Shown here one piece after another: positions 1,084 through 11,510 of a stretch of DNA of 20,970 nucleotides (its first letter is position 1; the number at the start of each line of letters is the position of its first letter). Source of the stretch: a virus; the IMG/VR virus record IMGVR_UViG_3300003886_000363, positions 1-20,970 of that record, one strand, 5' to 3'. The position numbers and the translations under genes are program-made. The notes beneath the pieces are model-generated. The model was not told the origin of the DNA, searched no databases, and saw only the letters and a program-made list of their open reading frames with translations.

Positions 1084-1407
1084 ATGAAACTCGACGCCGA
1101 AAAACTGGTCAACCAAGCCGCCAATCTGCTTAGCAATTTTGAGCTGGTTGCCATTTTCATTCCCGAAAAGGGATTGCTGGGCAAAGTCAAAACCTTTTTG
1201 CAATTCGTTTCCGATCGAATCGACACGCAAGACGAACGCGATGCGGTGGTTCGATTCCTTCGGTTGCTGCCCGTGATGCAATCGACGGGAGACGGCACCA
1301 GCCCGATTGTCGGCTTGCCAGATTCGATGGTCGGCTGCGAGGACTGTGCCGTGGCAGTCCAGGCTCTTTGCGATGGCGATTGCTGCGGTGACGACTGCCA
1401 TGCGTAG
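1084..1407 (+). CDS. Small protein with Cys-rich C-terminus, first gene of the late operon
   Basis: This is a 107-residue protein of unrecognised family. The ATG at 1084 follows AAGGGGG at a good distance, which is better than the in-frame ATG at 1018 inside the leader hairpin. The N-terminal two thirds are predicted helical and amphipathic, with a hydrophobic patch (FELVAIFI) too short for a clear membrane span. The C-terminus ends CEDC...CDGDCCGDDCHA, six cysteines plus acidic residues, suggesting metal binding or a disulfide knot. It overlaps the next gene by 8 nt, so the two are likely co-translated. Confidence 0.6.
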   Translation: MKLDAEKLVNQAANLLSNFELVAIFIPEKGLLGKVKTFLQFVSDRIDTQDERDAVVRFLRLLPVMQSTGDGTSPIVGLPDSMVGCEDCAVAVQALCDGDCCGDDCHA

Positions 1408-1621
1408 GGGACTCGAAGCTCTTGAGCGCACTGAGCGCGAAATAAAAAGAGACGAACGCCGCAAGGAGCGACGTGAAAAGTTCCGCCGGGCGATGGATCG
1501 CCTAGCGGTTCTTGCAGGCACTTTGGGCGGTTACTTTTTTGGCACACGTAAAATTGGCTGGGTAATCGCGGCGGTGCTGGCTGCGATTGGTGCGGCAATT
1601 ATCTGGAAGGTCACGCGATGA
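1400..1621 (+). CDS. Small membrane protein with highly charged N-terminus
   Basis: From ATG 1400 the product has 73 residues. The first half is a very charged helix (RTEREIKRDERRKERREK), followed by two hydrophobic segments (about residues 34-47 and 53-69, the latter VIAAVLAAIGAAIIW). An in-frame ATG at 1373 would add nine residues. The ATG at 1400 is chosen because it overlaps the preceding stop and has GGTGA 8 nt upstream. The stop overlaps the desaturase start (ATGA at 1618). The size and topology would suit a holin, pinholin or accessory membrane protein, but a better holin candidate lies at 4855. No family was recognised. Confidence 0.6.
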   Translation: MRRGLEALERTEREIKRDERRKERREKFRRAMDRLAVLAGTLGGYFFGTRKIGWVIAAVLAAIGAAIIWKVTR

Positions 1622-2166
1622 CGACTGGCACTGCCTTGGCTTGCATTCTTGTTGCTGATTTTATTACCGGATTAGTGCATTGGATTGAGGACACTTATGG
1701 TGTGCCGTCGTGGCCGCTTATAGGTAAGTCGGTCATACAGCCGAACATTGAACACCACAAGAGGCCTGGTCTGATTGGTTCAATGGGTTCGTTTTTTGGC
1801 CGAAATTACCAGCCAGCATTGCTGGCGATCGCTGTTTCTCTCGGTTTTTACTTGACCGGAACATTGAATTGGCATGTCGCAGTTATTGCATTGGCTGCCA
1901 GCTTTGGAAATGAAATACACACATGGGCACACAGAAAAGACCCTGGGAAAATCGTTCGGTTCCTGCACTCCACGGCATTGGTGATGACGCCGCAGCAGCA
2001 CGCTCGCCACCACAGGCCCCCATATACCACGTATTTTTGTACGATAACTAATTTACTGAATCCGATCTTGGAGCTTATCTGGTTTTGGAAATCTGCCGAG
2101 TGGGTTCTGTCCACTGTGTTTGGCGTGACCGCAAATCGCATGACCAAGGAACGCGAATTCGTTTGA
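1618..2166 (+). CDS. CarF/TMEM189-family lipid desaturase (plasmanylethanolamine desaturase-like)
   Basis: This 182-residue protein matches the Lipid_desat family (bacterial CarF, eukaryotic Kua/TMEM189/PEDS1), a membrane di-metal enzyme that introduces the vinyl-ether double bond of plasmalogens. Visible signature elements are GLVHWIEDTYG (His21, Asp25), IEHHKRP (His46, His47), EIHTWAHR (His101, His105), and QQHARHHRPP followed by TYFCTITNLLNPILE (His128, 131, 132). Order and spacing are as I recall for human PEDS1. Hydrophobic segments at about 66-82 and 85-97 fit an integral membrane enzyme. It is shorter than cellular members (about 270-280 aa) because the N-terminal extension with extra membrane helices is missing, while the His core is intact. 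It overlaps the previous gene by ATGA. Family assignment is confident; the actual substrate in this phage and host is unknown. Confidence 0.88.
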   Translation: MTTGTALACILVADFITGLVHWIEDTYGVPSWPLIGKSVIQPNIEHHKRPGLIGSMGSFFGRNYQPALLAIAVSLGFYLTGTLNWHVAVIALAASFGNEIHTWAHRKDPGKIVRFLHSTALVMTPQQHARHHRPPYTTYFCTITNLLNPILELIWFWKSAEWVLSTVFGVTANRMTKEREFV

Positions 2167-2191: not shown

Positions 2192-2638
2192 ATGAGCCAA
2201 GCCAAAGCGATTCATGTATCAAAACGAACACTGGCCGGTGTCGCTGCCATTGCGCTGGTTGCCATCCTGGCTTACCGCGCGCCGGAGATCATCTTGGCGG
2301 CCAGGGGCACTGTAGCCCCTGTCGACGCGCCTGCCCCGACGGTTTCTATCGCGTCAACGGTCGAAGGCGATAGAGAGCGACAACAGCTTGCAGCGTATTG
2401 CGAGGCATGGTCGCAGGCGATGCCGCAGGTGGAAGACTTAGGTCAATTCCGCGCGGCGAGTAAGTCTGCGGATAGGGCGTTGCAAGAATCGAGCAAGCTA
2501 CCGGACCTTGCGGAGTTTGGCGAGGCCCTTCAAGCCCGAATCGAAACCGCGATTGGCGGCGAGCTTGATCCGTCACGCACTGATTTGCAGCCGATCGCCG
2601 ATGAGCTACTTCGCGTGGCAGAGGAGTTGCGAGAGTAA
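2192..2638 (+). CDS. Membrane-anchored helical protein of unknown function
   Basis: This 148-residue protein has a TAGGAG ribosome site about 9 nt before the ATG. Residues about 13-36 form one membrane anchor after a short basic N-terminus, predicting N-in topology. The rest is a polar, Ala/Glu-rich, probably helical domain outside the membrane. It sits directly before the papain-like peptidase, with the TAA and the next ATG sharing one base (TAATG). An inner-membrane spanin or a partner of the peptidase would fit this architecture and position, but no motif proves either. Confidence 0.6.
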   Translation: MSQAKAIHVSKRTLAGVAAIALVAILAYRAPEIILAARGTVAPVDAPAPTVSIASTVEGDRERQQLAAYCEAWSQAMPQVEDLGQFRAASKSADRALQESSKLPDLAEFGEALQARIETAIGGELDPSRTDLQPIADELLRVAEELRE

Positions 2639-3660
2639 TGTCCGGCCCAAAATTCCAATCATGGCAGCAGCCCGAAACCAGTTCGATTGCGGATATTATT
2701 CGCCAGTACGAACGTGGTTATCGGGGCTGCAAGTACGACCAAGAAGGATCGGAGCGGCTGGCGTCCTACGGCGCTGCTTGCGCTGAGGATGCTCTATCCA
2801 GCCTCGGATACCAGGATTCCGCTAAAGGCCAGTTGGTTATTCCATTCATCCACGTCGAAAAGGCCTATCCGCTGGCTTACCCAGGGCCAGGGCAGCAGCG
2901 CGGTAGTTGTGTTTCTCATTGCATGCGGAACGCGGCATTGATTACGATGGCCGGCGAGGTGGTGTCTGGCCTCCCCGATCCAATCAGCGGCAAACAGGAA
3001 GAGTTCCCCGAAGTCTCGCAAGTCGCCGAGAAGGCTGGCGTGCTGGCGATCGAGCCATCTTACCACCACCGCAATCATAGCGGAGACGGTTGGTGGTGCG
3101 AATCTTGTGCTGACGTGATGGTTCGCAAGACAGGTGCCGTTTTGAGGCAGGATTATGGCTTTGCGAATCTCGAAAAGCTCGACCCAGACTACGCCGGAAA
3201 ATTCTGGAAAGAATCACAAATACCGAAAGAGGTGCGAGACGCCTTTGACAACAACCGATTTTCCGACGCATCGAAAGTGACCGACCCCGGCGCAATCCGG
3301 GACTTGCTCGCACACGGCATCGGCATCGGTTCGTGTGGCAGCGAAGGATTTTCTAACGTCCGCGACGAAAACGGCGTCAGTAATCGCAAGGGCAACTGGG
3401 CTCACGCAATGGACATAATCGGTTCGGATGATCGACCAATCATCCACCGGAAATACGGTGAAATGCTTAAATTGCTTCAAAACTCTTGGGGCAAATGGAA
3501 TTCTGGACCTCGCCGGATATTGGGGACGGAAATCGACATCCCCGAAGGTTGCTTCTGGGTGCGATGGAGTGACATCAAGAGGCGTTCTTTCGTCGCGCTC
3601 GCCGGTCTCAATGGATGGGAACGAAAACTACTGCCAGATTTATCGAGAGGTTTTGTATGA
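2638..3660 (+). CDS. Papain-like (C1-type) cysteine peptidase
   Basis: This 340-residue protein carries the papain catalytic layout. QQRGSC (Gln86/87, Cys91) supplies the oxyanion Gln and the nucleophile, NWAHAMDIIG supplies His256, and LLQNSWGKW supplies Asn282 in the classic NSWG-x-W context. There is no signal peptide, so the product should stay in the cytoplasm or virion unless a holin releases it. No classical muralytic domain appears elsewhere in the window, so this peptidase occupies the endolysin position. A protein-cutting lysin would make sense if the host wall or surface layer is largely protein. That is inference; roles in virion maturation, host takeover or peptide cross-link cleavage remain open. 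The ATGA overlap with the next gene indicates one operon. Confidence 0.78.
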   Translation: MSGPKFQSWQQPETSSIADIIRQYERGYRGCKYDQEGSERLASYGAACAEDALSSLGYQDSAKGQLVIPFIHVEKAYPLAYPGPGQQRGSCVSHCMRNAALITMAGEVVSGLPDPISGKQEEFPEVSQVAEKAGVLAIEPSYHHRNHSGDGWWCESCADVMVRKTGAVLRQDYGFANLEKLDPDYAGKFWKESQIPKEVRDAFDNNRFSDASKVTDPGAIRDLLAHGIGIGSCGSEGFSNVRDENGVSNRKGNWAHAMDIIGSDDRPIIHRKYGEMLKLLQNSWGKWNSGPRRILGTEIDIPEGCFWVRWSDIKRRSFVALAGLNGWERKLLPDLSRGFV

Positions 3661-4433
3661 TGCGATTTCCATGGCCCTATGCCCTATCCGTTGCCGCTTC
3701 GATTACGATCGTCGCTTTTCTGCTTTCGCTTACAGGCTGTTCTAGTTCGCAGCCAACGCAAGATGACTACATGCCGGAGATTGCCGTTGCGATTGGTTTA
3801 TCGTCCGTACAGAAAACAGACGCACCAATTACGCCTTCCGATGAATGCGGCAACTGCGGTGGCACTGGCGTACTGGGTGACGGCACGATCGAAATGCCGT
3901 GCGGAGAATGTGGCGGCGACGGCATTTTGTCGGTCGCTGAATGCGATGACGGAATTTGCATACGGGCACCGGAAGAAAAAACCACCGAAGCCGAGGCGGA
4001 CGTTGCCGAGGATTTTATCTTGCCGACCGACGAAACTGCAAACGACGAATTGCCTGCAATCGTCGAGCCCATTGAGTCGGTCGAGCCTCCCAGCAGCGAC
4101 GTACCGCCTGCTTCGGTGGACAAACCTAAATGGATTCGCCAGACAACTATCCCGAAACAAGGCTTAGTCGTCGTGCATTACATGTTCGATGGATGCAAGC
4201 CGTGCGAGCGGATGGAAGAGAATGTGTTATCTGCGGATAGCGCAAAAGAGGCTTTGCGTGCGTTTGATTCGTGCATTGAATGGGACGTTCGCAAAAAGAG
4301 CGTTCCGGGTGTCGATTTTGTTCCAGCCGAGGCTATTTTCCTGGACGGCAAGCGTGTGTCTTTCGCCAGGGGATTCCCAACCGCCAGTGGCTATACTACG
4401 TGGCTTTCGCGCCACAATACAAAACGAAAGTAG
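3657..4433 (+). CDS. Lipoprotein with DnaJ-type CxxCGG motifs and a thioredoxin-like domain
   Basis: From ATG 3657 (ATGA overlap with the peptidase; CGAGAGG upstream) the product has 258 residues. Residues 1-28 are a lipoprotein signal ending in the lipobox LTGC with Cys28. Next come two DnaJ zinc-finger-like half repeats, CGNCGGTG (Cys64, 67) and CGECGGDG (Cys82, 85), half the usual four. An acidic Pro/Glu-rich linker (about 100-160) leads to a thioredoxin-like domain with VVVHYMFDGCKPCERM, active-site Cys180-Lys-Pro-Cys183. It should be membrane-tethered on the outside and may act in disulfide exchange or folding, perhaps on the Cys-rich proteins of this operon. The in-frame ATG at 3615 is rejected because it lies within the peptidase gene. 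Confidence 0.75.
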   Translation: MMRFPWPYALSVAASITIVAFLLSLTGCSSSQPTQDDYMPEIAVAIGLSSVQKTDAPITPSDECGNCGGTGVLGDGTIEMPCGECGGDGILSVAECDDGICIRAPEEKTTEAEADVAEDFILPTDETANDELPAIVEPIESVEPPSSDVPPASVDKPKWIRQTTIPKQGLVVVHYMFDGCKPCERMEENVLSADSAKEALRAFDSCIEWDVRKKSVPGVDFVPAEAIFLDGKRVSFARGFPTASGYTTWLSRHNTKRK

Positions 4434-4788: not shown

Positions 4789-4842
4789 CCGCTGCTGGGC
4801 CGTGGGTTTGGACGCCCATTGCAAACGGCCCAGCGGTTTTTT
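4789..4842 (+). terminator. Intrinsic terminator-like hairpin ahead of the holin gene
   Basis: CTGGGCCG (4795-4802) pairs with CGGCCCAG (4826-4833). The stem is extended by CCG (4789-4791) with CGG (4834-4836) across a 3-nt bulge, and by TTT/AAA inside. Six Ts follow (4837-4842). The T-run runs straight into the AAGG ribosome site of the gene at 4855, so the hairpin may also control holin expression. Confidence 0.65.
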
Positions 4843-4854
4843 AAGGTCGGAAAA

Positions 4855-5181
4855 ATGTCGTCGCTAAAATCAATCACGCTTTTGGTCGCAACCTTTGTAG
4901 TTGTCCCTTCAGAATATATTTCTGATTTAGTCGGGATGTGCTTGGCTTTGCTTGGTGGAGCAGCAGCACAGATGCCCCAGATGGGGAAGCTGCCAGCCTT
5001 AGAGATTGCGGGCGAATTACTTGCTTCGGCTCTCGCCGGCTTTGTCGTCCACGCTGCTGCCTTGTCTTTTGAAAGCCCGCCAACGCAACGCATTGTTTTT
5101 GCTTCTTGCATTTGCGGGGGTTACTGCGGTGCTGAAACACTTCGGTACTTTTCTAAGGGGTTCCGCCGTGATAAAGACTGA
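4855..5181 (+). CDS. Probable holin
   Basis: From ATG 4855 (TAAGG about 8 nt upstream; an in-frame TTG at 4819 would start inside the terminator hairpin) the product has 108 residues. Three hydrophobic segments are visible at about 7-38, 48-72 and 79-93, and the tail is short and charged (KGFRRDKD). Small size, several membrane spans, a charged C-terminus and position in the late region are typical of phage holins (LydA-like type), which form membrane lesions that release cytoplasmic lysis enzymes. Holins share little sequence, so the call rests on architecture. Its last 14 nt overlap the PAS gene. Confidence 0.62.
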   Translation: MSSLKSITLLVATFVVVPSEYISDLVGMCLALLGGAAAQMPQMGKLPALEIAGELLASALAGFVVHAAALSFESPPTQRIVFASCICGGYCGAETLRYFSKGFRRDKD

Positions 5182-5611
5182 GCGACTACACCCGATATTG
5201 GTTTGGGTTGCGATCATATCGATCGTCGTCTTCGTGCCGGGCATGGCCGAGTCTTACTACACGTCGCACAAGGGCAAGCAGGACCGCAACAGACTGGTTC
5301 GGGCACTCACACAAACGCACATTGCTACGGTAGTTGCCGATGAGAAGATGGACATAATCCACCGCAACCCGAAGGCCGATGAGATTTTCGGCGTGTCCCT
5401 AGCGGGGAAGCGAATATGCGACCTAGTGCCGGAAGGGCATGGGGACGTTCACGCCGAGGGTGTCGAGCGATGGAAAGAAAAGGGTGGAGTTAGGGCAGAG
5501 CCAATCCATTGCAAAATAACCCTACCCGACGGAACAGAGCGCGACGTACAAATAGCCTTGTGGTCAACGCATTGCAATGGCGAAGTGATTTTTGTAGCGG
5601 AGATAAAGTAG
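5168..5611 (+). CDS. Membrane-anchored PAS-domain protein
   Basis: The start is GTG 5168, with AAGGGG 8 nt upstream; the longer frame from 5006 would lie inside the holin gene. The 147-residue product has one membrane span (about 9-25), a basic juxtamembrane stretch (HKGKQDRNR), then a PAS fold filling about residues 42-147. Visible PAS signatures are IATVVADEKMDIIHRNPKA, DEIFG, GKRICDLVPEGHGDVHAEG, and the late strand pair TLPDGTERDVQIAL. PAS domains sense redox state, oxygen, light or small ligands. There is no kinase, cyclase or other output domain, so the output must be through a partner. The 14-nt overlap with the holin gene suggests translational coupling and a holin-modulating role, which is inference. 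Confidence 0.75.
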   Translation: MIKTERLHPILVWVAIISIVVFVPGMAESYYTSHKGKQDRNRLVRALTQTHIATVVADEKMDIIHRNPKADEIFGVSLAGKRICDLVPEGHGDVHAEGVERWKEKGGVRAEPIHCKITLPDGTERDVQIALWSTHCNGEVIFVAEIK

Positions 5612-5612
5612 C

Positions 5613-8294
5613 ATGACACTAGCAGAAAAAAACGAGCTTCTACTCCTGAACTTATCGATGGACGAAACGTCGGGAGTCTTAGTTTCCGATTCGTCGACAA
5701 ACCGAAACGATGGGACAATGACGCCCGGTAACTTGCCGAGCGTAACCGGTGCAGATGGAAAACTTGGCCTGCGATTCAACGGCACGGACGAATACATTAA
5801 TATGGTGTTGCCCCCCGTGCCGGAAGATATTACCGCACTGACCATACTGGTCGATTTCAAGTTCGACGGTGGACCAGGAACTCGCCGAGTCATTCTTGAA
5901 ACCTCAGATAACTTTTCCCTGAGCATAGAGATAGGCACTGACCAAGACTTGAACGGAAGTTTTCGCCGGACTGGGGATGACTGCACCTTTAACGGCCCGG
6001 TCTTGGTTCAGGGCCAGCGATATAAAGTAGCGTTCGTCTATAATGGTCGGAGAATACGCGTTTATGTCGACGGTGTTTACGTCGGAAGGTCCAACGAAGG
6101 CGGTGGTGATTTGGAGTCGATGAACGGCTTGCATGTTGGCACTTTTCGCTCGGCAAATAACCGCTGGTTCGACGGCGTGATCTACGAAGTACAAATATAT
6201 CACAGCGAACTTACCGACAACGAGCTTGCCGAATACAGCGCTGGAAGCAGGAATGCCACGCTTGTCGACTACGCCATAGTCGGGGCAGCAACAAAAACAG
6301 GTGCAGTAGTCGCAGCAAAAACCAAAGTGATTTTGCCGACAAAGCTAGCCGTTTACGCCAACGAATCTCTGATTCTAGAGACAGCCGAAGTAACGCCAGA
6401 CGCTAATAATCGCGTCAAAATACCGATCACCGGCCTCGATCCGAACAAGAGATATACTGCAAGGATCATGCAGGGCGACCTAATCGACGTGCATAATGAC
6501 GTTGTATTTCGGACGCACCCCGAAGGGAACGCGAGCTTTACTTTCGCCACTTCTTCTTGTGCTTCCGGTGCGGATTTCCCCAATACAACTTCGACTTCTG
6601 ACCACCCGGTTTTTACGCACATTGCGAAAGCGGATCCGCTTTTCTTTGTCCACACGGGTGACCTGCATTACTTCGATATCGCGGTAAATAATATCTTGCT
6701 TTTCCTTGCGGCTTTTGATTCTGTAATGTCGAGCCGTAATCAGCGTGGCCTGTTTTCCATTTTGAGCTTGCTCTACATGTGGAGCGACCACGACTACGGT
6801 CCGAACAATTCTAATTCGTCTTCACCCTCCCGCCCTGCCGCTATTCAATCGTACCGCGACCTAGTACCTCACTTGCCTCTGCCAGACAGCGAGGGGATTT
6901 ACACAGACCAAATTATTGGCCGAGTTCATTTTATCTACACCGACGAACGGGCATATCGAGACACTTCTGCGGCTACAATTCTCGGCACGGTTCAGAAGCA
7001 ATGGCTCAAAGACACAATGTTAAACTCTTCGGCAGAGTTGTTTATCGTTTTCGTAGGCGTGCCGTGGATTGCACCATCAAACTTCAGCGACACGTGGGGC
7101 GGGATTGCAAACGCCGAGCGAACGGAGCTGGCAGACTTTTTCCAAGAGAATGGTTTCAATGGTAAGCTGCTTTTGGTGCATGGCGATGACCATGCTAGTG
7201 CTTATGACGACGGCACAAATAGCAATTACGCAACGAGCCCCGAAGGTAAAGGGCCGGCAGTGCTCTTGGCATCGTCTCTCGATTCCGCACCGATCATTGC
7301 GACCTACAGCGGGCCGTACAGCTCAGGAGCGAAGACGCTAGGACCCGGTCAATATAGCTTGGTTGGAATTCGAGACGACGGGGACAAAATAACAGTCACC
7401 TGCACCGGAGTTAAATTCGACGGCGTGACAGAATCGCAGACTTTTCAGCACAGCTTTTCCGTTGCGACAGAAGCCGACGTGGTGAGCGGCATTGTTGCCG
7501 ACCCTAACTTTGCGACTTTGTTTGCTGATTCGGCAGCGGCGAAGGTAATTGTCGACGACTGGACCCAAGGCGGGCGGCTGGATTTGATCGTTGATGAAGT
7601 GCTGGCTGATACTGCCGTGATGCCGGCAGCGGTTGACGCAGCTATTGCAAACAGGCTGGACGGTGTTGACCTAACGCAAGTAATCGCAGACGCAATAGCA
7701 ACCGATTGGGTGGCTGGCGATGCTTCCCCGATGGCAGTGGCCGCAGCTCTGGTAGCCAATCCGACGTTCGCCACGCTCGTTGCTGATGCGGCTGCTACTA
7801 AGGTGACCACAGACAAGCTCGACCCGCTGATTGAGCCGGGGGCTCCTGCGTTTACTGCGGTGGCTTTGGAGGGGGCTCCTACTGGGGGTGGAGGCAGTAC
7901 GGAAGGACTGGCAGAAGAAATTGTTGCGGCTATTGTTGCGGGCGAAACATTCATTCCAAACAACATGCACGTCTGGCAGTTAGCCCGCAGCACTACAGGA
8001 GTGATCGTGCGAGACAGCTTTGTAATCAAGAAAGCACCATCCGAAAAGCTTTTATGTTACGTCGACTTTTCTGCACTACTTGGCAAAGGCGAGGAGGTGA
8101 GCGAGATTTTATCGTTAGACGCATCCGGGGGAACAGTATCTGAAGTAGTTGCCAGCCGAGGGATACTTGGGAGGTTCGTCTTCGTCGAGCTCGAAGCAGG
8201 CGACGTCGGCGACAGGGCGATGGTTGATGTCATTGTTAAAACAACGCGGACGCAAGAGCTTGCCGCAACTGCGATGGCCCTCGACGTTGTCTGA
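5613..8294 (+). CDS. LamG / PhoD-like phosphoesterase / Ig-like fusion, putative enzymatic spike or fibre
   Basis: This is an 893-residue protein. Residues about 1-210 look like a LamG/concanavalin-type jelly roll (DETSGVLVSDSSTNRNDG, LRFNGTDEYI, VYVDGVYVG, FDGVIYEVQIY). A beta-rich FN3-like segment (about 210-300) precedes a PhoD-like metallophosphoesterase (about 300-605) with HTGDLHYFD (Asp350, His352), WSDHDYGPNNS (Asp392, His393, Asp394) and VHGDDHAS (Asp525/526, His527). Thus the metal-site motifs seem intact. Residues 622-745 contain two Ala/Asp-rich repeats. The last about 90 residues (FVIKKAPSEKLLCYVDFSALLGKGEEV onward, in parts) resemble the Ig-like domain found at the ends of phage fibre proteins. 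There is no signal peptide, consistent with virion assembly rather than secretion. It may bind surface glycans and cleave phosphate esters or phosphodiesters on the host surface. Confidence 0.72.
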   Translation: MTLAEKNELLLLNLSMDETSGVLVSDSSTNRNDGTMTPGNLPSVTGADGKLGLRFNGTDEYINMVLPPVPEDITALTILVDFKFDGGPGTRRVILETSDNFSLSIEIGTDQDLNGSFRRTGDDCTFNGPVLVQGQRYKVAFVYNGRRIRVYVDGVYVGRSNEGGGDLESMNGLHVGTFRSANNRWFDGVIYEVQIYHSELTDNELAEYSAGSRNATLVDYAIVGAATKTGAVVAAKTKVILPTKLAVYANESLILETAEVTPDANNRVKIPITGLDPNKRYTARIMQGDLIDVHNDVVFRTHPEGNASFTFATSSCASGADFPNTTSTSDHPVFTHIAKADPLFFVHTGDLHYFDIAVNNILLFLAAFDSVMSSRNQRGLFSILSLLYMWSDHDYGPNNSNSSSPSRPAAIQSYRDLVPHLPLPDSEGIYTDQIIGRVHFIYTDERAYRDTSAATILGTVQKQWLKDTMLNSSAELFIVFVGVPWIAPSNFSDTWGGIANAERTELADFFQENGFNGKLLLVHGDDHASAYDDGTNSNYATSPEGKGPAVLLASSLDSAPIIATYSGPYSSGAKTLGPGQYSLVGIRDDGDKITVTCTGVKFDGVTESQTFQHSFSVATEADVVSGIVADPNFATLFADSAAAKVIVDDWTQGGRLDLIVDEVLADTAVMPAAVDAAIANRLDGVDLTQVIADAIATDWVAGDASPMAVAAALVANPTFATLVADAAATKVTTDKLDPLIEPGAPAFTAVALEGAPTGGGGSTEGLAEEIVAAIVAGETFIPNNMHVWQLARSTTGVIVRDSFVIKKAPSEKLLCYVDFSALLGKGEEVSEILSLDASGGTVSEVVASRGILGRFVFVELEAGDVGDRAMVDVIVKTTRTQELAATAMALDVV

Positions 8295-8483
8295 TGGCGT
8301 TGATTATAGGCGATAAAAAAACTGCCTTTTTTTGAGTTGAAAAATCGGATTTTTTAGGGCGAAAAAACGGGGGTCGGTCGGGTCCTTTGAGGCACCCCCT
8401 GGCCCCTGGTTCGCGTTATTACCCGAACACTTTTTGCAGATAAGAATGAAAAAACAGCCTCTCACCTATGATTATTGGGATGA
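8295..8483. other. Intergenic region before the terminase genes; possible cos/packaging region
   Basis: This gap contains a weak terminator-like hairpin (8308-8333), an AT palindrome AAAAATC-G-GATTTTT (8340-8354), and a G/C-rich inverted repeat GGGGGT (8369-8374) with ACCCCC (8394-8399). A TATGAT at 8467-8472 could be a -10 element, but no good -35 lies 17 nt upstream. In lambda-type phages with GpA-family terminases, cos lies just upstream of the small terminase gene, so this is where it would be expected. No cos consensus can be recognised by eye. Confidence 0.35.
8308..8333 (+). terminator. Weak terminator after the spike gene
   Basis: AGGCG (8308-8312) pairs with TGCCT (8323-8327, one G-T pair) and is followed by a run of seven Ts (8327-8333). 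The stem is short and A-rich in the loop, so efficiency would be low. Confidence 0.4.
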
Positions 8484-9095
8484 ATGAAACCAAAACGCAA
8501 GGAACCGAAACAGACGCAGCTCGACGGGTCGTGTGCTCGCGTGCTGGCACTTCGCCCCCAGGTGTTTGACCGGGTGTCGATCAAAGCTTTGGTTGGCGAT
8601 CGAGTTGTCGCTTCGATGCCGCTGGTTGGTCAGGAATTCGGAGTTAGTGCTATCACGATCCGGCAGGGTTGGAAGGCCAACGGGATGCCAGGCGGCGACG
8701 GCAAGTACCGGCTGGTTGATATTTTAATTTGGCGAATGGAGCACAACAAGAAAAACGAGAAGTACACGAAGAGTCGCAGTGAAGGAAGCAGCAGGCTGAA
8801 AGAGATTGAGCTAGAGCGGGCGGAAGTTGCACTGGCTGCCGCCAAGTCGAATTACGAAGAGTCGGGCGGCCAGTTGGTTGCACGCGACCAAGTCAAGTCC
8901 GAGGTCAGTGCGATGCTCGCCGTGTTCAGCAAGACGCTACTGGACATACCAAGGTCTTTGACACCTTTGCTGCCGGAGAAATTTGTTTCTGCCGTGATAC
9001 CAGAACTCGAAAAACTGATTCGCCACGCACTCAAGGCATTGTCTGAAAAGTCACACCAAACCTATTTGAAAGAAGGAAAAAACGATGAGCTGTAG
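8484..9095 (+). CDS. Terminase small subunit (Nu1-like DNA-packaging protein)
   Basis: This is a 203-residue protein. Residues about 48-90 form a winged helix-turn-helix typical of Nu1-type subunits (VGQEFGVSAITIRQGW, then a Gly-rich turn and YRLVDILIWRMEH). A basic linker and a long helical segment (SSRLKEIELERAEVALAAAK) follow, the usual coiled region that mediates oligomerisation and contact with the large subunit. The C-terminal part matches the conserved helical end of this family (DIPRSLTPLLPEK). The small subunit recognises the packaging site on the phage genome. Position directly before the large terminase, with one orphan between, supports the call. It overlaps the next gene by 11 nt. 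Confidence 0.82.
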   Translation: MKPKRKEPKQTQLDGSCARVLALRPQVFDRVSIKALVGDRVVASMPLVGQEFGVSAITIRQGWKANGMPGGDGKYRLVDILIWRMEHNKKNEKYTKSRSEGSSRLKEIELERAEVALAAAKSNYEESGGQLVARDQVKSEVSAMLAVFSKTLLDIPRSLTPLLPEKFVSAVIPELEKLIRHALKALSEKSHQTYLKEGKNDEL

Positions 9096-9504
9096 CAAGA
9101 TATCGATTGCTGTTGGAGAGTCGGAGAAGCAAGTCAGTGTGTCCTTCTCCACTTCTGGATGTAACGATCAGTCACTTGAAGTTTCGATTGGCCCGGGCGT
9201 GACGCAAGAACTTGTCGCAATAATCAATCCGGATTTATTGCGGGCTTTGTTTGCGGTGTCCAGTGGCAATGCTCGTATTTCCTTTGGCGAAAAGTCCGTC
9301 GCTGTGATGCCGCGGATTCCGCTGTTCTGGTACGACGGAATAGGCACGCTTGCCGAAGATGCTATTTGTTCTGAGATTTGTTCGCTCAGTGTGTTTAATC
9401 CTGGCGATGAGTCCATTCTGTTTTCACTTCGCGCTTCGCATGTCTTTCCGGAAACGCCCGAAAGCAATTCGGAAGAGGAAGAAATCGAAAGCGAACCGGC
9501 CTAG
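9085..9504 (+). CDS. Hypothetical protein between the terminase genes
   Basis: This 139-residue protein has AAGGAAAA upstream and its start lies inside the end of the small terminase gene. The stop TAG shares its G with the GTG start of the large terminase, so the three genes are translationally coupled. It seems beta-rich (ISIAVGESEKQVSVSFSTSG, SLSVFNPGDESILFSLRAS), with a segment MPRIPLFWYDGIG in the middle and a very acidic tail (SEEEEIESEP). No family was recognised. Placement suggests a packaging accessory factor. Confidence 0.6.
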   Translation: MSCSKISIAVGESEKQVSVSFSTSGCNDQSLEVSIGPGVTQELVAIINPDLLRALFAVSSGNARISFGEKSVAVMPRIPLFWYDGIGTLAEDAICSEICSLSVFNPGDESILFSLRASHVFPETPESNSEEEEIESEPA

Positions 9505-11510
9505 TGGCCTTGTTGGGATACCAGCCTTCGGCCCTGTCGCATGACGTTCTGTCAGCCCTGAGTCCTCCAGGAAACGTCAGGACGTGGGATTGGATTTGCG
9601 AGAACGGAAGGATGCCGAACGGAAATCCGTTTGACGGCGATCGCGTCCCGTGGCTGGAGGGTGTGTGCGACGCTTATGACGATCCAGAGACTAGGACGGT
9701 TTCGCTTATGTGGGGCACTCGGCTTGGAAAAACGATCGGCGCTTTGCAAATCATGGCGTGCATGATGGCGACCGCTCCTATGCCAGGGCTGTTTACGTCC
9801 AGCACCCAGGGCCTGGTCAAGCGAACCGTCCGCAATAAAATCTATCCGATTCTACGCGCTGTCAGCGAGACTGCGTCACAGCTACCGTGTGAGCGATTGC
9901 AATCTTGGGAGCGAATCGCACTATCTAAATCGACGTGGAGTGTTGCGTGGTCGGGTTCGTCGACAACACTGGCCGACGTGGATGCGTTTTACGGACACGC
10001 AAACGAAATCGACAAGTTTGATTTCACGGAGCAGATGGGCGGCGAGGTGGGCGAAGGCGATCCGCTCGATCAATGGGACGAGCGATTCAAAGAGTACCCT
10101 GATTCCAAGCAAATCTATGAGTGCTCCCCGACCACGAAGCTACGCTCTCGCATCTACAAGAAACTTCAGCGCTCGAACAATTGTAGGTTCTGGGTGCCGT
10201 GCCCTGATTGCAAAAATCGGCAGGTGCTAAAGCTTGGCTCGGGTGATCCTAAGTCGGGCGGGCTTCTGTTTGACAAAACCACGGAAGGCACTCTGGACCT
10301 GGAGACTGCGAGATCGACTTCTCGTTACGTGTGTGAGCACTGTCGTAGGGAAATTTACGACGAGCACCGGTTCGCCATGATGCGAGCAGGCAAGTGGGCA
10401 CCGGAGGGTTGTTCAGTAAATCGGCGAGGCCGGCTTGTCGGCACGCCCGTTCGTCCTTCGCGTCACTGGGGCGGAAAGCTTTCGTCGCTTTACTCTTTGC
10501 AGCTTCGGTGGGGCGACATTGGCGCCAAGTTTGTCGAGGCCCAGGGCAATCGCCGTTCGCTCCAGATGTTCATCAACGGCTGGCTGGCGGACGTATGGGA
10601 GCCGTACCGCAGCAAGAGCGAACCGGAGAAAGTTGGCGAGCGTCTTGTAACGGACGTCGAGCCCGGAGTCATCCCTGAATGGGCGACCTGGGTCTTCAAT
10701 GGCGTTGACGTTCAAGAAGAGTGCTTGGTTTACGCGACGATCGCCGTGGGGCCTGGTGAGCGTATCGCGATTCTTGAAAAGGGAGTCCTTGATTCTTGGG
10801 AAGAGCTCAAGCAGGAAGTCATCAAGAGGAAGTTCGAGCACGAGGATGGTGGGGTTCCGCTCAGTGCAGCACTCACATTGATCGATAGTGCGCATCGAAC
10901 CAAAGAAGTCTACGATTTCTGCAAATCATTCAGAGGCAGCGGACATGTCGTGATGCCATGCAAGGGGGCTAACAACGACTGCAATGGCGAGGCCTACCAG
11001 AAGATCATTATCGGCGAGGGAACAAAGACAGGGTCCAAGGCGATGAAGCGATTGGCGCTGGAGGCACGCGGTTTGGTTCGCGTTCGAGTCAACCCGTTTC
11101 ACTACGAACCAATCATCCAACGTCAGATCGATCAGTTGTGCCCAGAAGATGACGGGTCGCTGAGCATTCCCGCCGGGTATGATGAAGATGAAAACTTCCT
11201 GTACCAACTCTGCAATGCTGCTATGTCGGCCGAGCCAAGCAAGGCAGAACCCGACAAGCACCTGTGGGTGAAGCGATGGGAGAATCGCGAAAATGATATT
11301 CGTGATTGCCTGAAATACGCTCGTTGCGCAGCAGACCTGAAGTTTCGCGGTGACTGGAACAAGGCGAATCGAAGGCAGGGGACGGTCGCGACGGTCGCAC
11401 CAAAAGCCGCCAAGGTCAGCGGATCCAGTGCCGGGGCTGGCGATCGAAAATCACGACGGACATCATTGCGGAAAAGAATGCAGCGACGCAGATCAGCACG
11501 GAGGTCGTAA
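9504..11510 (+). CDS. Terminase large subunit, GpA family
   Basis: This is a 668-residue protein starting at GTG 9504. The ATPase has a Walker A GTRLGKT (Gly71-Thr77) and a Walker B-like HANEIDKFD with the probable catalytic Glu168, followed by GEGDPLDQW and the YECSPTT coupling motif. A four-Cys insert typical of GpA proteins is present (CPDC 233-236, CEHC 277-280). The C-terminal nuclease domain shows FNGVDVQ (Asp402) and LTLIDSAHRTKEV (Asp461), expected metal ligands. A Lys/Arg-rich tail ends the protein. It translocates DNA into the prohead and cuts concatemers, in complex with the small subunit and portal. Length is close to that of lambda gpA. Confidence 0.93.
   Translation: MALLGYQPSALSHDVLSALSPPGNVRTWDWICENGRMPNGNPFDGDRVPWLEGVCDAYDDPETRTVSLMWGTRLGKTIGALQIMACMMATAPMPGLFTSSTQGLVKRTVRNKIYPILRAVSETASQLPCERLQSWERIALSKSTWSVAWSGSSTTLADVDAFYGHANEIDKFDFTEQMGGEVGEGDPLDQWDERFKEYPDSKQIYECSPTTKLRSRIYKKLQRSNNCRFWVPCPDCKNRQVLKLGSGDPKSGGLLFDKTTEGTLDLETARSTSRYVCEHCRREIYDEHRFAMMRAGKWAPEGCSVNRRGRLVGTPVRPSRHWGGKLSSLYSLQLRWGDIGAKFVEAQGNRRSLQMFINGWLADVWEPYRSKSEPEKVGERLVTDVEPGVIPEWATWVFNGVDVQEECLVYATIAVGPGERIAILEKGVLDSWEELKQEVIKRKFEHEDGGVPLSAALTLIDSAHRTKEVYDFCKSFRGSGHVVMPCKGANNDCNGEAYQKIIIGEGTKTGSKAMKRLALEARGLVRVRVNPFHYEPIIQRQIDQLCPEDDGSLSIPAGYDEDENFLYQLCNAAMSAEPSKAEPDKHLWVKRWENRENDIRDCLKYARCAADLKFRGDWNKANRRQGTVATVAPKAAKVSGSSAGAGDRKSRRTSLRKRMQRRRSARRS

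Follow-up and report, generated by a model that had tools for sequence, protein, structure and literature searches.

An intact open reading frame of 182 codons at positions 1618-2166 (+ strand) of the DNA analysed here, the whole 20,970 bases of one IMG/VR virus record and hereafter termed the window, raises the question of whether a phage can encode its own enzyme for the desaturation of host membrane lipids, and if so, of which kind. A preliminary description, made from the sequence alone, had taken the product for a plasmalogen-type lipid desaturase of the CarF/PEDS1 family encoded in a phage late operon. The phage origin of the window at this locus is borne out by genes for terminase subunits, a portal, a decoration protein, a major head protein and a tape-measure-like protein, and the desaturase gene is therefore phage-borne.

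With respect to family membership, the product matches Pfam Lipid_desat (PF10520) over positions 1-172 of the 175 in the profile (E = 3.6e-40, 138.3 bits, the Pfam gathering cut-off being 26.4 bits), as the description had expected. The active site was mapped by aligning 82 unique proteins and applying the mouse PEDS1 numbering (PMC8960569). All eight universal histidines (H21, H46, H47, H101, H105, H128, H131 and H132) are present with the published spacing, their mouse counterparts being H96, H121, H122, H187, H191, H215, H218 and H219 (PMC8960569), and D25 corresponds to the essential mouse D100; the eight histidines and the aspartate are in register, and vary little or not at all among 32 N-type ('PNxxHH') sequences. 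The claim that all histidine clusters of the family are present thus stands for the family-wide residues but fails for the ninth, PEDS1-specific histidine (mouse H131). The features concerned are:

1618..2166, + strand: Lipid_desat (PF10520) predicted membrane diiron desaturase, N-type ('PNxxHH'), 182 aa (Pfam 138 bits, AlphaFold pLDDT 96.3, tree)
1678..1692, + strand: H21 (first catalytic His, mouse H96) to D25 (essential Asp, mouse D100) (alignment)
1744..1758, + strand: NIEHH box, with N43 at the position of PEDS1/FAD4 Phe118 and H46, H47 equivalent to mouse H121, H122 (alignment)
1783..1785, + strand: Met56 at the PEDS1-diagnostic His131 position (alignment)
1918..1932, + strand: H101, H105, equivalent to mouse H187, H191 (alignment)
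1999..2013, + strand: H128, H131, H132, equivalent to mouse H215, H218, H219 (alignment)

The noted minimal length is likewise correct and is the usual one for the N-type branch (mostly 175-190 aa). PHROGs has no family for the protein, and no homologue was found in the plasmids searched.

In the alignment, both positions that distinguish PEDS1/CarF are changed, Phe118 to Asn43, which is invariant in N-type sequences, and His131 to Met56. His131 is essential in CarF, and reports of it are confined to homologues from metazoans, myxobacteria and Leptospira; plant and alphaproteobacterial homologues without this ninth histidine did not replace CarF (PMC9131029). Phe118 stacks on H187 in PEDS1 and is among the residues conserved in PEDS1 and FAD4, and its exchange for Ala lowers the activity of PEDS1 to about 6% (PMC8960569); asparagine at this site could therefore mean a different chemistry, e.g., hydroxylation, or a weak activity. 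The CarF equivalog model NF045946 is the sole NCBIfam match of the window protein, at 86 bits against a cut-off of 500; N-type proteins reach 62-91 bits with this model and controls having both Phe and His131 152-199, all of them below 500. A true plasmanylethanolamine (delta-1') desaturase, by which the phage would make vinyl-ether lipids, is thus unlikely despite the common Pfam family, the CarF match and the conserved histidines and aspartate, given the two missing residues, the lower model scores, the failed complementation by homologues lacking the ninth histidine, and a phylogenetic position apart from the sequences carrying Phe and His131 (see below). The data thus lend no support to plasmalogen synthesis by the phage enzyme, conceivable as it is, and the epithet 'plasmalogen-type' had to be given up. 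The only viral PEDS1-type copy found, with Phe and the ninth histidine, lies at L006:7965-8420 (LR756511.1, a 595-kb phage), and its residues make it a likelier phage plasmalogen enzyme than the window protein.

Of 65 representatives, 30 are viral and 35 cellular; 29 of the former and 14 of the latter have asparagine at the 118 site, whereas Phe together with His131 was seen in 12 cellular sequences and the 595-kb phage, counts that reflect a search pattern mostly built from N-type sequences and a partial sampling of cellular ones. In a tree of these 65 sequences, which is without named PEDS1, FAD4, animal or myxobacterial sequences and unsure in its long branches, the N-type sequences form one clade (98/92) apart from the PEDS1-like ones; the phylogeny foreseen in the preliminary description thus speaks against a plasmalogen enzyme. 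The clade includes 29 of the 30 viral representatives and within it three viral groups, one of 19 exclusively viral members (99/97), one containing the window together with a single long-branch cellular row (100/99), and one of Erythrobacter/Sphingomonadales phages (99/94). Judged from sequence, the window protein is a member of this N-type, a largely viral, uncharacterised and so far unnoticed branch of PF10520. In sampled cellular genomes the family is rare, matches over the cut-off being found in 3 of 190 genomes of the class of G001, 2 of 198 of the phylum of G003, and 4 of 149, 8 of 194 and 1 of 287 from the groups of G005, G007 and G004, respectively; chromosomal N-type genes (in Chitinophagaceae, Acidobacteriota and others) had no telling neighbours.

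Structure prediction, also proposed earlier, gave a confident AlphaFold model (pLDDT 96.3, pTM 0.89). A structure search of the PDB returned no good match, the top three all being Scs7p, a fatty-acid hydroxylase of the His-box diiron type, at non-significant E-values of 0.46-0.63 (probability 0.60 for the best two), and a sequence search of solved structures gave chance matches only. The top match in BFVD was the Harvfovirus Lipid_desat protein A0A3G5A308, which has the same fold (Foldseek E = 1.2e-6, TM 0.69) but belongs to a giant virus, is 220 aa long and is 23% identical. Harvfovirus has a eukaryotic host. The model contains fewer hydrophobic segments than the four transmembrane helices of CarF, and basic residues after its first helix would fit a cytoplasmic His cluster. 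The Scs7p matches, a secondary Pfam FA_hydroxylase match below the cut-off (E = 0.0043) and the altered second-shell residue N43 would be compatible with N-type proteins being lipid hydroxylases or other His-box oxygenases and not desaturases. This is nevertheless improbable, as FA_hydroxylase scores 17.9 bits against 138.3 for Lipid_desat, and as no PEDS1 or FAD4 structure turned up in the PDB, so that the match to Scs7p may only reflect a shared His-box fold.

The genes surrounding the desaturase gene are:

1084..1407, + strand: small protein whose gene opens the run (start codon ATG at 1084) and overlaps the one after it; no Pfam family over cut-off
1400..1621, + strand: basic protein of 73 aa with one TM segment, its gene sharing an ATGA with that of the desaturase; homologue in L145
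2192..2638, + strand: next gene downstream of the desaturase gene, encoding a single-TM protein with a weak homologue in L145, there without an intervening desaturase gene
2638..3660, + strand: papain-fold cysteine protease-like protein (Q86, C91, H256, N282), a recurring neighbour
3657..4433, + strand: lipoprotein with LTGC lipobox, a CxxCxGxG zinc-knuckle-like part and a weakly thioredoxin-like C-terminal part (CKPC)
4819..5181, + strand: holin-like membrane protein (weak; Pfam Phage_holin_3_3 E = 0.011, below cut-off)
5006..5611, + strand: TM and PAS-like protein (PAS matches below cut-off); a profile-similar protein lies near the desaturase gene of L010-L012

As had been described, the enzyme, a member of the CarF superfamily (PF10520) with an intact metal site, is encoded amid morphogenesis and lysis-side genes, and its start is coupled by an ATGA overlap (1618-1621) to the gene of a small membrane protein; the next small membrane protein begins 25 bases past its end. 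Its description as the third gene after a late promoter holds in so far as it is the third after a 171-nt gap (913-1083); a sigma-70 scan of 9 kb, however, found three sites, where 5.5 +/- 2.2 were expected, and none near 900-1080. Scans with Rfam and for tRNAs were empty. At the non-coding start of the contig lies a GA-rich low-complexity tract (354-390), and positions 5613-8294 encode a probable tail protein combining LamG and a PhoD-like phosphatase, similar phosphatases occurring in cyanophages and actinophages.

The product of 2638-3660 is a putative papain-fold (C1-like) peptidase by its sequence, with Gln, Cys, His and Asn in papain order and a Foldseek match to Xylellain (E = 2e-8). 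In its family, which is large in viral contigs, C91, H256 and N282 are invariant and Q86 is conserved to at least 90%, and members of it are neighbours of the desaturase in L010-L012 and L016 as well. In L012 (10531-12468), this neighbour has an intein-like insert at the catalytic Cys (TIGDC/FVAGTT...) that is absent from the closely related copy in L010. The syntenic locus L145 keeps the gene order of the window from the small basic protein through the next membrane protein and the protease to the lipoprotein, but lacks the desaturase, which is therefore an accessory and dispensable member of a conserved cassette.

The earlier statement that no phage example is known is incorrect, since homologues occur in Erythrobacter phage vB_EliS-L02, in the 595-kb phage and in well over 90 viral contigs. 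One alignment-based scan alone gave 94 such contigs, and other scans added more; 158 fetched loci, including two GenBank phage records but also some repeat fetches of one contig, collapse into 32 lineages at 80% identity, IMG/VR membership of short contigs being itself a prediction. As looked for in viral metagenomes, the gene often adjoins terminase, portal, tail or lysis genes: terminase lies directly downstream in L008 and L060, adaptor and neck genes adjoin it in L009, tail terminator and completion genes stand beside it in a Sphingomonadales prophage-like region (L110), and portal and PhoH genes are near it in vB_EliS-L02 (L005). A literature search found no paper linking PF10520 or plasmanylethanolamine desaturase to phage genes. 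In two distant viral lineages a related HAD-family hydrolase is encoded just upstream of the desaturase (L007:9495-9989 and L061:1260-1796), and the terminase large subunit of L013 (5494-8640) contains an apparent intein-like insert (EFACLEAGSLVETTNG...).

In one viral lineage, comprising relatives and not this phage, dN/dS has a median of 0.14 and a maximum of 0.30 over 98 pairs, by which the protein is under purifying selection in viral relatives. It is hence very improbable that the gene is a passenger without benefit, inserted recently from a host into a phage module: its absence between the same two neighbours in L145 would suit such an origin, but the constraint in viral relatives, the intact and coupled frame, and deep viral clades, one of them having 19 representatives and no cellular member (99/97), argue against it.

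In addition, thioredoxin-like genes recur near the desaturase. Of 12 Pfam Thioredoxin matches in the 32 whole records, four lie within 1.5 kb of it where 0.35 are expected (Poisson p about 5e-4, an optimistic value because the proximity was noticed first and tested afterwards), all four in relatives that belong to the window's group or stand nearest to it. A thioredoxin profile of our own matched in 8 of the 32 lineages, and the representative loci that were fetched contained no match at a greater distance from the desaturase. In the window itself the candidate is the lipoprotein at 3657-4433 (Thioredoxin_2 E = 0.012, below cut-off; E = 0.02 in another thioredoxin search). A 'thioredoxin' near the desaturase of L016 was rejected, the similarity lying in the zinc-knuckle part. 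In plants, PRXQ (peroxiredoxin Q) stimulates FAD4 and is needed for its activity in yeast (Horn 2020, as quoted in PMC12456178), so the neighbour is a possible echo of this pairing by analogy. That such a thiol-redox partner supports or regulates the desaturase, a reading that would elaborate the one preferred below and not exclude it, is doubtful, since beside the proximity and profile counts stand the post hoc p-value and the thioredoxins located far away, the only weakly thioredoxin-like copy in the window, and the 12 of 79 protease loci that carry a thioredoxin-like gene without a desaturase, so that this gene may belong to the cassette in general; moreover, the N-termini of the thioredoxins suggest export, whereas the His cluster of the desaturase should be cytoplasmic.

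Taken together, the best explanation, to which we give a probability of roughly two in three, is an N-type diiron desaturase altering host membrane lipid for the late phase of infection. It would be translated along with late and lysis-side phage genes and insert into the membrane so that the His cluster faces the cytoplasm. With O2, and with a reductant of the host as electron source, it would then place a double bond in one chain of a membrane lipid of the host. By likeness to characterised family members, in which the bond is placed at C1'-C2' (PEDS1) or C3-C4 (FAD4) (PMC8960569, PMC9131029), this double bond would probably be near the glycerol backbone, and the change might tune the envelope for assembly, holin action and lysis, or membrane integrity. 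The earlier proposals, that the membrane is readied for lysis, guarded against reactive oxygen or closed to superinfection, are likewise hypothetical. As a more tentative proposal, the N-type may be a virus-dominated branch of PF10520 with a chemistry of its own. Its product would be a phage-made unsaturated membrane lipid absent from uninfected hosts, and in some lineages a thioredoxin-fold protein from the same late cassette would serve the enzyme as a dedicated partner.

As to the host, matches of the major capsid protein, TerL, portal, PhoD and protease pointed to mixed distant phages and gave nothing usable, and a TerL search for close relatives of this phage returned one distant contig. 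In the related phage contig L002 a DUF1501 protein is encoded beside the desaturase (8452-9681). DUF1501 is typical of planctomycetes, and this one pointer suggests that the host is perhaps a member of the Planctomycetota.

Compared to known systems, the phage protein shares with CarF/PEDS1 (TMEM189) the PF10520 family and the eight catalytic histidines and aspartate of a predicted membrane diiron site, but lacks Phe118, His131 and the N-terminal region bearing the first TM helix. With FAD4, the plant PG 16:1 delta-3-trans desaturase, it shares PF10520 and the eight histidines, and FAD4 has PRXQ as thiol-redox partner much as many phage copies have a thioredoxin-like gene nearby; however, FAD4 is a chloroplast enzyme, and its conserved Phe is Asn43 in the phage protein. 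Lipid desaturases of cyanophages and pelagiphages (Roitman 2018, as cited in PMC11480375) and the viral FADs known from sea ice and from brine (PMC7300359), those from brine modelled on stearoyl-CoA desaturase, are likewise membrane desaturases of phages with a presumed effect on the lipids of the host, but have been described as fatty-acid or acyl-lipid desaturases and not as Lipid_desat. UIS25202.1 of vB_EliS-L02 is an N-type Lipid_desat protein, 40.6% identical and encoded beside the portal gene, yet it is annotated as hypothetical protein, and the main text of the phage's description (PMC9127768) contains neither 'desaturase' nor 'lipid'.

Descriptions of phage lipid desaturases have so far mainly concerned acyl-lipid enzymes, from cyanophages and from phages of polar habitats. 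The window protein is a predicted genuine phage lipid desaturase from a new, mostly viral subfamily, and selection retains this second desaturase family, which occurs in 32 viral lineages or more, although it goes by 'hypothetical' or is unannotated; labelling every PF10520 protein 'plasmanylethanolamine desaturase' would in turn mislead virome annotation. The phage enzyme probably edits host membrane lipid late in infection, which predicts a specific lipid change at that stage, and with Erythrobacter phage vB_EliS-L02 an isolated host-phage system exists in which such a change may be sought.
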